Notes under the pieces: generated by a model
What the model saw: only the letters and a program-made list of their open reading frames with translations
Told to the model about the DNA's origin: nothing
Database searches by the model: none
From: a virus
Virus record (IMG/VR): IMGVR_UViG_3300017917_001994
Location: 1 to 26,611 of that record
Strand: one strand, 5' to 3'
Length of the DNA: 26,611 nt
Position numbers and translations under genes: made by a program
In this document: positions 15,193 through 26,611 of the stretch, piece by piece
Position numbering within the stretch: the stretch's first letter is position 1
How the letters are laid out: each line of letters begins with the position of its first letter

Positions 15193-15807
15193 ATGCTAGT
15201 ACCAATGGTAATTGAAAAGACAGGGCAGGGCGAACGTGCGTTTGACATTTTTAGTCGGTTGTTAAACGAGCGCATTGTATTTTTGAATGGCCCGGTTGAC
15301 GATCATTCAGCTAACTTGATTGTTGCACAATTGCTTCATCTCGAAAGTCAAGATAGCGAAAAGGATATTCATTTCTACATCAATAGTCCGGGAGGACTAG
15401 TCACTGCTGGACTGAGCATCTATGATGTTATGCAATTTATCAAACCCGACGTTGCTACGTATGTTATGGGTCAAGCAGCATCAATGGGGTCGTTTTTAGC
15501 GCAAGCCGGGGCTAAAGGCAAGCGTTATGTATTGCCCGAATCACGCACAATGATTCACCGTGTTAGTTCCGGAACTCCAGGCACTCGTGGATCCGTTCAT
15601 GTCCAAGAACTTCAATTTGAGGACGCAAAACGCACTTACGAAGAAAGCCAACGCATCAATAAACGACTAACAGAACTATACGTAAGACACAATACTGCGG
15701 GCAAGACTTATGAAGATATGTTTGAGACTATGAAGTTTGATACATTTTTAAGTGCTAAGGAAGCAGTCGAATGGGGACTTGCTGATAAAGTTGTCGAGAA
15801 CAGATAA
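15193..15807 (+). CDS. clpP: ATP-dependent Clp protease proteolytic subunit ClpP, 204 aa
   Basis: Serine peptidase S14 that forms a tetradecameric chamber fed by ClpX or ClpA. The catalytic triad is intact: S97 in GQAASMGS, H122 in RTMIHRV and D183 in KFDTFLSA, aligned to E. coli S111/H136/D185 (precursor numbering). The start resembles mature E. coli ClpP (LVPMVIEKT), so little or no propeptide is present. Family blocks [18 protein letters not shown] and [20 protein letters not shown] are present. The AAGGAAAA ribosome site is good. No ClpX or ClpA is seen nearby, so it would need host ATPases or form mixed rings. This is a host-like ClpP, not the distant ClpP-fold prohead protease. Confidence 0.92.
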
Positions 15808-15821
15808 TGTAGTATTTTTAT

Positions 15822-15864
15822 CAACTCCGGTAACGCAATAAATAATTGTGTGTTTCCGGAGTTG
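15822..15864 (+). promoter_or_regulatory. RBS-sequestering hairpin spanning a late promoter
   Basis: CAACTCCGG (15822-15830) and CCGGAGTTG (15856-15864) are perfect 9-base complementary arms; a further six pairs (AACGCA against TGTGTT, one of them G-U) continue inside after one mismatch. The right arm contains the ribosome site CCGGAG (15856-15861) of the membrane-protein gene at 15867. The apical loop contains the late-promoter-like AATAAATA (15837-15844). Read-through RNA from clpP would hide the ribosome site; RNA begun near 15850 would lack the left arm and expose it. Confidence 0.7.
15837..15844 (+). promoter_or_regulatory. T4-type late promoter (AATAAATA)
   Basis: One base from TATAAATA, lying in the loop of the hairpin 15822-15864. 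The predicted start is near 15850, giving a leader of about 16 bases with an exposed CCGGAG and a TTG start at 15867. Confidence 0.55.
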
Positions 15865-15866
15865 CT

Positions 15867-16166
15867 TTGGCTATAATAGACGAATATATTGAGATTTTGT
15901 TAAAATTAAATAGAGAAAGAATACTTTGGCTTATAATTAGTGGTTTTGTTTGTTTTAGCATTGTTGTTATTCTTTTTGAATTGCCGAATATTCAAAATTT
16001 AAGAATAGTATGGGCATTCGTTATCACTGGCATCATTATGACAGTTGTATGGTGGTACTGGACAATGATGCTAATCAGAAAAATCCTCCAACTAAATTTA
16101 ATAGAACGGAAGATAATAGAAGAAATTCTCTCCGACATTGAAGATCTACGAAAAATAAAAAAATAG
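15867..16166 (+). CDS. Two-helix membrane protein, TTG start, 99 aa
   Basis: The frame has no early ATG. TTG 15867 lies five bases after CCGGAG and gives MAIIDEYIEILLKLNRERI. Two membrane helices follow, about residues 26-48 (WLIISGFVCFSIVVILFEL) and 58-82 (VWAFVITGIIMTVVWWYWTM), then a basic/acidic cytoplasmic tail (ERKIIEEILSDIEDLRKIKK). Size and topology fit a holin-like or superinfection-exclusion protein, but no family motif is visible. The hairpin and late promoter at its start imply tight late-only translation, which would suit a toxic membrane protein. An earlier TTG at 15846 is rejected for lack of a ribosome site. Confidence 0.65.
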   Translation: MAIIDEYIEILLKLNRERILWLIISGFVCFSIVVILFELPNIQNLRIVWAFVITGIIMTVVWWYWTMMLIRKILQLNLIERKIIEEILSDIEDLRKIKK

Positions 16167-16207: not shown

Positions 16208-16279
16208 AAAGCGGCCTTCGGCGTCACCCCGCTTTACAAATTCTGCCGCCTATGTTAAAATTAATATAGGAGATCAATT
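16208..16279 (+). promoter_or_regulatory. Structured leader RNA of the QueD-like operon (riboswitch-like)
   Basis: Three mutually related pairings are visible. AAAGCGG (16208-16214) pairs with CCGCTTT (16229-16235). GCGGC (16211-16215) can instead pair with GCCGC (16245-16249). CCTATGTT (16249-16256) pairs with AATATAGG (16263-16270), which includes the start of the ribosome site AGGAGA (16268-16273). The alternatives are partly exclusive and end in masking of the ribosome site, as in translational riboswitches or protein-bound leaders. It does not match the preQ1-I, preQ1-II or THF-II consensus as I remember them. No ligand can be assigned. Confidence 0.5.
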
Positions 16280-21623: not shown

Positions 21624-21649
21624 TATATCTTAATAATACTTCAAAGATA

Positions 21650-21676
21650 AAAAAAGGGCCACTAGGGCCCTTTTTT
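21650..21676. terminator. Bidirectional rho-independent terminator
   Basis: AAAAAAGGGCC (21650-21660) pairs perfectly with GGCCCTTTTTT (21666-21676), with a 5-base loop ACTAG. The A run on the left and T run on the right make it work in both directions. It separates the + strand UvsE operon from the minus-strand gene ending at 21675; the minus-strand stop codon overlaps the T run. Confidence 0.92.
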
Positions 21677-22105: not shown

Positions 22106-22113
22106 GATAAATA
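22106..22113 (+). promoter_or_regulatory. T4-type late promoter (GATAAATA)
   Basis: One base from TATAAATA, with the correct 3' seven bases ATAAATA. It lies 29 bases before the first tail gene, with a predicted start near 22120. Confidence 0.7.
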
Positions 22114-22114
22114 G

Positions 22115-22134
22115 CTCTATAGAGATCTATAGAG
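22115..22134 (+). promoter_or_regulatory. Inverted repeat over the ribosome site of the tail cluster
   Basis: CTCTATAGA (22115-22123) and TCTATAGAG (22126-22134) are perfect complements separated by two bases; the second arm abuts the ribosome site AGAGGA (22131-22136). The predicted late start (about 22120) falls inside the first arm, so late RNA could not form the whole stem. Confidence 0.55.
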
Positions 22135-22141
22135 GAAATCC

Positions 22142-23348: not shown

Positions 23349-25400
23349 ATGAGCACGACTCCCGTTTGGATAACACCTGCAGGCTTGCTAACTACAGCAA
23401 CCGAGCTAACATTTACGTCTACTAGTGTACTAGCAACCGGTACGAACGTAAAATATTCAGTTGCAAGTGGGCAACTGCCTGCAGGAATGTCATTTTCTTC
23501 ACTCGGTATTATTTCTGGTACCCCGATGGCAGTGTCTAATACTGTCAGAAATGAATTTACTATTAGAGCAAGGAGTTTTCCATATTATTCAGACAGAACA
23601 TTCTTTATCGATGTTCAAGGGTTTAGTAATGTTGGATGGGCCACACCTAGCGGTTATTTGAAGATCGGATATAATGGTGAACAATACGCAATAAACAAAC
23701 AGTGGATAAACATTCAATTACTTGCCAACATCGGAAATGATCCTGTTACTTTTTCTCTTAAAACAGGTGCGTTGCCCGACGGACTTTCACTATCTGCAAG
23801 TGGAAAAATCACTGGATATGTGAATTCTCAGTTTATTGAAGATTTGCCGGAGATTTACGAATTTACAGCAACTGTATCTAACGGAACAATTTCATCAGAT
23901 AGGGCATTCAAAATTGCACTGATACATCCAGACATGCTACGTGCAGATAGCTCTTTATATGACTGGGTATACGAGACCTTTACTGCTGACAACAATGTTG
24001 CAAGCATTAGTTACTTGCAACCATTGCAGTTTCTAAACGGAAATGACCTTGGCACCATAACACCAAGCACAAATCTTGTATCTATCCCCGTACAGGCGTA
24101 CGATGCAGCACCAAATCGAGGCCCTGTTTCTTATAACATAGTTAATGGCTATTTGCCAGATGGCTTAACATTAAACACTAGTACTGGAATCATATCTGGT
24201 TACGCAAAACGAACGCCCGAATATACAGACAACTATCAGATATCAATTGCTGCAACTAAAACAGATTTAGAATCTTCTGCAACAGTAGTAACGTACAACG
24301 TATTTGACCTTAAAGTAAAAGGTAGATTTGAGTCGCCTTTACACTGGGTAACGTTGCCAAATCTTGGGACTATTGAAAAAGGAACAGTTAGCGAACTGTA
24401 TGTTCGAGCTATAGAGAATGACAGTAGCGAAGGCATCAAATACAAAGTAATCGGAGGGGGCTTGCCTCCAGGCATAACCTTAAAATATGATGGCACTTTA
24501 GTTGGAAGAGTGTCCTACGATGCAATGGCGTCTTACAATTTCACAATTCGTGCCACAAATAAACTAAAGAGTAGATTTATTGATCGAGAATTTACATTAT
24601 CGATAATACAGTCACAAAAACATTATTCCGAAATATATCTACGACCATTCTTACCAATTGATAAACGCTCTGAGTATAATGAATTTATCACTAATGAATC
24701 GATATTCGTACCCGATGCCATGTATCGATTTAATGATATAAATTTTGGAATTCAAAGAAACATGAAAGTAGTTCTTGAATTTGGATTAGAACAACTCTAT
24801 CAAGAAGAATACTATTATGCGATTTTAGAAAACTTTTATAAAAAGAAGCTACAACTTGGAACTGTAAAAACTGCACAAGGCAAGGACTCTGCAGGCAATC
24901 ACATATATGACGTAATTTACGTAGAAGTCGTAGACGAATTAGTCAATAATGCCGGCGAAAGTGTTAACAAAATTGTCTTATATCCGTGGACAAGAAACGA
25001 ACTATACTACCCGGCAAGTATTGACAATATGAAATCTCAACTGAGATCCGTCACTTTGATTGACTATACTACAATATCAGTAAACGAGCGTATGCGCCCG
25101 AGATACATGAAATCATCAGGTAACACATACATAGCAGTAATGCCGCTTTGCTATACACTACCCGGTATGAGTGGAGAAATTGTTAGAAGAATTAAGAAAA
25201 GCGGGTTCAAATTTAATACTGTCAATTTTGAAATTGACAGGCTAGTAGTCTCAGATACGCTAGATAAAACCAAAGATAAATATATAAGATTTGATAGACA
25301 AGCTCTAGGAGACTTGATAGAATCGGATTCGTTTATCAGAGGTCCAGAAGGATGGATTCGACTAGACGACGAGGATGACCAACCTCTATTAAGAGAATAA
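23349..25400 (+). CDS. Large virion adhesin with four putative-Ig (He_PIG) repeats, 683 aa
   Basis: Four repeats of the putative-Ig (He_PIG) type, each with a 'Y.(I/V)..G.LP.G(L/M).(F/L)...G.ISG' core, at about residues 35-59 (GQLPAGMSFSSLGIISGTP), 135-158 (GALPDGLSLSASGKITGYV), 261-286 (GYLPDGLTLNTSTGIISGY) and 364-388 (GGLPPGITLKYDGTLVGRV). These beta-sandwich modules occur in cell-surface and phage tail adhesins. The last 270 residues (EIYLRPFLPIDKRSEYNEF onward) are a separate unrecognised domain, possibly for attachment to the baseplate. It lacks a signal peptide, as virion proteins do. Late operon, between the chaperone-like and S74 fibre genes. Confidence 0.75.
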   Translation: MSTTPVWITPAGLLTTATELTFTSTSVLATGTNVKYSVASGQLPAGMSFSSLGIISGTPMAVSNTVRNEFTIRARSFPYYSDRTFFIDVQGFSNVGWATPSGYLKIGYNGEQYAINKQWINIQLLANIGNDPVTFSLKTGALPDGLSLSASGKITGYVNSQFIEDLPEIYEFTATVSNGTISSDRAFKIALIHPDMLRADSSLYDWVYETFTADNNVASISYLQPLQFLNGNDLGTITPSTNLVSIPVQAYDAAPNRGPVSYNIVNGYLPDGLTLNTSTGIISGYAKRTPEYTDNYQISIAATKTDLESSATVVTYNVFDLKVKGRFESPLHWVTLPNLGTIEKGTVSELYVRAIENDSSEGIKYKVIGGGLPPGITLKYDGTLVGRVSYDAMASYNFTIRATNKLKSRFIDREFTLSIIQSQKHYSEIYLRPFLPIDKRSEYNEFITNESIFVPDAMYRFNDINFGIQRNMKVVLEFGLEQLYQEEYYYAILENFYKKKLQLGTVKTAQGKDSAGNHIYDVIYVEVVDELVNNAGESVNKIVLYPWTRNELYYPASIDNMKSQLRSVTLIDYTTISVNERMRPRYMKSSGNTYIAVMPLCYTLPGMSGEIVRRIKKSGFKFNTVNFEIDRLVVSDTLDKTKDKYIRFDRQALGDLIESDSFIRGPEGWIRLDDEDDQPLLRE

Positions 25401-26324: not shown

Positions 26325-26332
26325 TATAAATA
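26325..26332 (+). promoter_or_regulatory. Perfect T4-type late promoter TATAAATA
   Basis: Exact match to the T4 late consensus, in the gap after the S74 fibre gene and 28 bases before the ATG of the collagen-like gene at 26360. Predicted start about 26339. Confidence 0.85.
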
Positions 26333-26359: not shown

Positions 26360-26611
26360 ATGAGTCGTGCATCCTTATTAGAAATCTTATCCACCCCGTT
26401 AACTAATCCTACAAATCTAGAAACTCGATTTGTAGTAGTCCACAACGGTGTTGAGCAGACTATCACACCCGCAGTAGTTGTTAGTTGGTTGGGAAATCTT
26501 CAAGGACCTGTTGGACCTCAAGGTCCGAGGGGTGCTACGGGCCCGACAGGTCCGAAGGGTGCTACTGGTCCGACAGGTGCTACTGGTCCGACAGGACCGA
26601 CTGGTGCTACA
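26360..26611 (+). CDS. Collagen-like tail fibre protein (3' end outside window)
   Basis: Begins [20 protein letters not shown] with the ATG at 26360 and continues open to the edge. From residue 49 it is a Gly-X-Y repeat ([20 protein letters not shown], with GAT, GPT and GPK triplets), that is, a collagen-like triple-helix shaft, common in phage tail fibres. The short N-terminal domain probably attaches it to the baseplate or to another fibre. It is driven by its own perfect late promoter. Total length and the receptor-binding end are not visible. Confidence 0.85.

Follow-up and report, generated by a model that had tools for sequence, protein, structure and literature searches.

A predicted T4 gene e-type translational switch in a group of uncultivated T4-like phages

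The window analyzed here, a 26,611-nt stretch of IMG/VR virus record IMGVR_UViG_3300017917_001994 (positions 1 to 26,611), contains a hairpin between a ClpP-type protease gene and a small membrane-protein gene. A switch of the T4 gene e type is the best reading of this hairpin, and we regard it as probable, since its arms covary among related loci, a TAAATA motif is kept between them, relatives of the phage encode a gp55-type sigma factor, and the ribosome site is predicted to drop in accessibility in read-through RNA. Transcripts reading through clpP would fold nucleotides 15822–15864 into the hairpin, which would bury the Shine-Dalgarno sequence of the membrane-protein gene and prevent its early translation. 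Late in infection, host RNA polymerase carrying a phage gp55-type sigma factor would initiate at AATAAATA inside the hairpin, near position 15850, and the resulting RNA, lacking the left arm, would leave the ribosome site much less buried and allow the protein to be made. What we infer in this model is that early transcripts read through, where the late RNA starts, and when the protein is translated; the read-through RNA is suggested by the contiguous, same-strand genes and by the finding of no recognized terminator between clpP and the hairpin.

The hairpin, the covariation of its arms, the conserved motif, the sigma gene in relatives, and the predicted accessibility change were each computed. 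In the window, a repeat search extended the core arms to 16 nt with 88% complementarity and a spacing of 11 nt, and a 58-nt segment folded at -21.9 kcal/mol (z -4.8), with none of 200 shuffled sequences being equally stable. Among the non-overlapping 50-nt sites of the contig the hairpin ranks fourth in stability despite 38% GC. An earlier sequence-only reading of this DNA had described the arms, AATAAATA in the loop, a right arm that includes the ribosome site, and a TTG codon five bases 3' of CCGGAG; all of these were confirmed (Table 1). A search of Rfam returned only chance-level matches, such as mir-70 (E 1.8) on the hairpin.

Table 1. Positions of the switch elements and of other features in the window and in related loci
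Feature	Position	Strand	Evidence
ClpP-type protease gene, presumed source of the read-through transcript	15193..15807	+	Pfam CLP_protease, E 9e-64
Left arm (core CAACTCCGG, 15822-15830), absent from the predicted late RNA	15822..15837	+	sequence, repeat search, fold
AATAAATA in the interval separating the arms; putative -10 element of a T4-type late promoter	15837..15844	+	TAAATA kept in relatives
Right arm (core CCGGAGTTG, 15856-15864) with the Shine-Dalgarno sequence (GGAG, 15858-15861); late RNA predicted to start near 15850	15849..15864	+	repeat search, accessibility
Small membrane protein, 99 aa, TTG start (15867-15869)	15867..16166	+	homologues, structure model
H-type pseudoknot upstream of PTPS/QueD-like gene	16209-16265		conserved in 29 loci
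Pseudoknot in relative L005	6317-6365		
Pseudoknot in relative L039	5349-5400		
Pseudoknot in relative L040	2147-2190		
Terminator-like hairpin 3' of UvdE-like gene	21643-21676		
ATAAATA followed by hairpin arms CTCTATAG/CTATAGAG	22107-22141		
Start of collagen-like Gly-X-Y repeats	26480-26611		
Unit with ATAATTA, L039	4924-5000		
Unit with ATAATTA, L040	1713-1797		
Unit with ATAATTA, L074	4147-4221		
Unit with ATAATTA, L105	4600-4671		
Second strong switch of G001, before homing endonuclease gene	L141 18654-19564 (G001 58654)		

A scan with a ClpP profile yielded 80 loci, and a hairpin with TAAATA between its arms and a Shine-Dalgarno sequence in its right arm recurred after clpP; the clpP product of the window is 84–88% identical to those of relatives having the same downstream hairpin. 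In two loci, L005 and L064, a tail gene rather than clpP precedes the unit. For 21 loci, picked by eye from the locus lists, the arm sequences differ while complementarity and the intervening TAAATA are retained: arms of the same locus pair at a mean of -16.4 kcal/mol as compared to -9.5 kcal/mol when swapped between loci, and the summed pairing energy was not matched in any of 100,000 permutations, which excludes chance. A search with an unrelated motif located seven sites upstream of membrane genes of this kind, partly overlapping the earlier loci; TAAATA was in place at all seven, although the hairpin of one (L241) is unclear. A variant of the arrangement, in which the right arm covers the start codon itself in place of the Shine-Dalgarno sequence, occurs at L054, L090, L111, L064, L097, and L079; the predicted late RNAs of L054 and L111 have a leader of two bases. 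At L059 the ribosome site is not covered by the right arm. Four further loci have ATAATTA where TAAATA is expected (Table 1); their loop is larger and in several of them contains a second small hairpin.

Hairpins were also sought at TAAATA sites of four relatives under a strict rule that needs a Shine-Dalgarno sequence found by pattern; they were present at 2 of 34 sites in G001, 1 of 14 in G010, and none in G003 and G014. This rule misses T4 e because shuffled sequences there also pair its Shine-Dalgarno sequence. As few TAAATA sites carry hairpins, the hairpins are selective and not a by-product of AT-rich promoters. The only two strong switches found among the 34 sites of G001 precede the same membrane gene as in the window and a homing endonuclease gene.

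Accessibility of the ribosome site was predicted for read-through RNA and for a late RNA whose 5' end was placed six bases beyond the promoter. In the relatives, the predicted probability of the Shine-Dalgarno sequence being unpaired is approximately 0 in most read-through RNAs and mostly 0.3–0.94 in the late RNAs, and at the loci hiding the start codon that codon goes from approximately 0 to 0.28–0.69. No comparable shift is predicted at the majority of the remaining TAAATA sites of these loci, and the T4 controls e and 49 behaved in the same way as the switch loci in the same test. The left arm of the window outperformed 100 shuffles (p 0.01), and the predicted cost of opening GGAG falls from 14 kcal/mol in the read-through RNA to 3.3–6.6 kcal/mol in RNA starting at approximately 15850, varying with the downstream length included. 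By strict probability, GGAG in the late RNA of the window is 0.03 unpaired, unlike in most relatives. The residual cost arises largely because CCGGAG pairs with downstream bases such as CUUUGG, a local pairing that also covers the TTG start. The predicted change thus has the direction expected of the switch, but given this residual hairpin and the TTG start, we predict that late translation of the window gene may be weak or modest.

The window belongs to a member of an uncultivated T4-like phage group. Its genes are of phage type and include those for the ClpP-type protease, a PTPS/QueD-like protein, GTP cyclohydrolase, dCMP deaminase, and tail fibers; a search for cultured relatives found none close to this phage, and related IMG/VR contigs reach 260–360 kb. 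A clear intrinsic-terminator-like hairpin (AAAAAAAGGGCC...GGGCCCTTTTTT) lies 3' of a UvdE-like gene, and the collagen-like repeats that begin near the end of the window are in a reading frame that continues past the contig end. A T4 gp55-type late sigma factor is encoded in 9 of the 14 related records tested, with best cultured matches in the Pseudomonas phage PA5oct group (approximately 46% identity); none was seen within the 26.6-kb window, itself a fragment.

The late promoter motif was examined independently of the hairpin by counting 7-mers upstream of predicted genes in relatives. ATAAATA ranked first in G014 and G010 and second in G001 (15 seen, 0.9 expected); in G003 it was near the top, but its reverse complement was equally frequent. 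This enrichment, together with the gp55-type sigma factors of relatives, makes a T4-type late promoter well supported at the sequence level in this phage group. In the window ATAAATA occurs four times, always on the plus strand, where 9.3 occurrences would be expected for the two strands together; besides the sites in Table 1, it is found at 25276, close to where the ORF upstream of a tail fiber gene ends, and at 26326, between two ORFs. The hairpin following ATAAATA at 22107, the right arm of which touches the ribosome site of a tail-fiber-connector-like gene, was not significant in a shuffle test (p 0.47). In G001 (L139–L151), ACACTAAC-type 7-mers such as ACACTAA (17 seen, 1.3 expected) are also enriched upstream of genes and are possibly another promoter or leader element, and GCTATAA is likewise enriched there.

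Two other accounts of the hairpin were weighed. A strong stem immediately 3' of clpP could be an intrinsic terminator or a 3' stabilizer of the clpP mRNA that overlaps the next ribosome site by chance. An intrinsic terminator was rejected for want of a T-run, which is missing after the right arm both in the window (GTTGCTTTGG) and in L005; moreover, the right arm always lies at a Shine-Dalgarno sequence or start codon though its sequence varies, and at L005 and L064 the gene preceding the unit is not clpP, making this account most unlikely. We also consider it very unlikely that the hairpin is a thermosensor or a protein-binding operator with AATAAATA being a mere AT-rich loop or a sigma70 -10 element. 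Hairpins over Shine-Dalgarno sequences can be opened by other means, and sigma70-like matches are present at 15841–15846 (AATAAT) and 15872–15877 (TATAAT), but the retention of TAAATA between otherwise changing arms, its presence in 7 of 7 loci from the unrelated-motif search, and gp55 in relatives count against this account.

The gene under the predicted switch encodes a 99-aa protein with two predicted transmembrane helices and charged ends and tail, which AlphaFold models as a helical hairpin (pLDDT 84); its homologues in relatives have ATG starts. These proteins form a family (A) of 99–115 aa with two transmembrane helices and a WWYW motif, and share a C-terminal helix (hhalign 95.6%) with a second family (B) of 55–60 aa with one helix. 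The sequence-only reading had joined to the switch the proposal that the protein is a holin or other toxic protein kept silent until late infection. Whereas the switch is strongly supported in comparisons by the covariation, TAAATA, gp55, and the T4 e order of elements, the holin or toxic-protein part had only been deduced and is unsupported, as no family match is convincing and the hairpin also precedes tail-type genes. That the protein is possibly a holin or similar lysis protein, with the switch preventing early lysis, is suggested by the two helices with their charged ends and tail and by weak matches of 4 of the 14 family A members to Pfam Phage_holin_5_2 (best E 0.0019). We nevertheless regard this as unlikely: the window protein matched no PHROG and scored 14.1 bits (E 0.056) against the Pfam holin model, below the curated cut-off of 29.2; a different Pfam family, 8xMP, matches more members, also weakly (7 of 14, best E 1.2e-5); a structure search gave uninformative helical matches at E 0.15 or worse, none below 0.1; and a one-helix protein takes the place of the window protein in many phages. 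A literature search on 8xMP found nothing relevant. Because the device is also found before tail-type genes at this junction, it points to late timing and not to toxicity.

A second conserved RNA element lies just downstream of the membrane-protein gene, where an H-type pseudoknot precedes the PTPS/QueD-like gene (Table 1). Its 5-bp stem changes on both sides (AGCGG/CCGCT, ACCGG/CCGGT, TCCGG/CCGGA, AGAGG/CCTCT, and AGTCG/CGACT), and the pairing of loop and tail covaries (0 of 50,000 permutations). A sequence pattern derived from it was found in at least 120 viral contigs, but in 84,980 species genomes only a single contig matched, and 74 of 81 elements stand before a PTPS-like ORF. The pseudoknot has no match in Rfam, and its layout is similar to that of the preQ1-I riboswitch. 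We regard it as a candidate riboswitch that is nearly phage-restricted, separate from the neighboring switch and testable in its own right.

In T4 the mechanism proposed here is well known from genes e, soc, 49, and I-TevI; a review describing it gives about 100-fold repression for e and predicts the switch only in close T4 relatives carrying e (PMC3014915). The window resembles T4 gene e in having a left arm, a late promoter, a right arm with the Shine-Dalgarno sequence, and a start codon in that order, and in that the early read-through RNA is predicted to be closed. The late RNA is predicted to be open in T4 e and mostly so in the relatives; in the window its ribosome site becomes easier to open but stays locally paired. 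The window differs from T4 e in that the gene encodes a small membrane protein and no lysozyme, the promoter is AATAAATA in place of the TATAAATA of T4 e, a TTG start and a residual local hairpin are present, and the phage group is distant. As in T4 soc, 49, and I-TevI and in Aeh1 mobE, the Shine-Dalgarno sequence or AUG would be sequestered in read-through RNA (PMC3014915), and the homing endonuclease with the same arrangement in G001 recalls I-TevI; in contrast to these systems, the genes downstream are unrelated, and here the arrangement occupies mostly one junction, after clpP, where the downstream genes change.

From sequence comparison, a switch of the T4 gene e kind is predicted in distant phages, with relatives adding a variant that hides the start codon, and the covariation indicates that this style of control is conserved well beyond the close T4 relatives in which it was described. 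Most occurrences share a single genome junction, although the genes there differ. As the hairpin also precedes tail-type genes after clpP, it looks like a device of the early/late boundary rather than a mark of toxicity. We tentatively suggest that the unit may be such a boundary device, placed after clpP or a tail gene, ahead of any late gene that comes next, and hiding either a Shine-Dalgarno sequence or the AUG of an almost leaderless late mRNA, and that the small membrane proteins often under its control may constitute a new late-acting phage family. For this as yet unnamed family, the predicted switch would provide a clue to timing, namely that its members act late.
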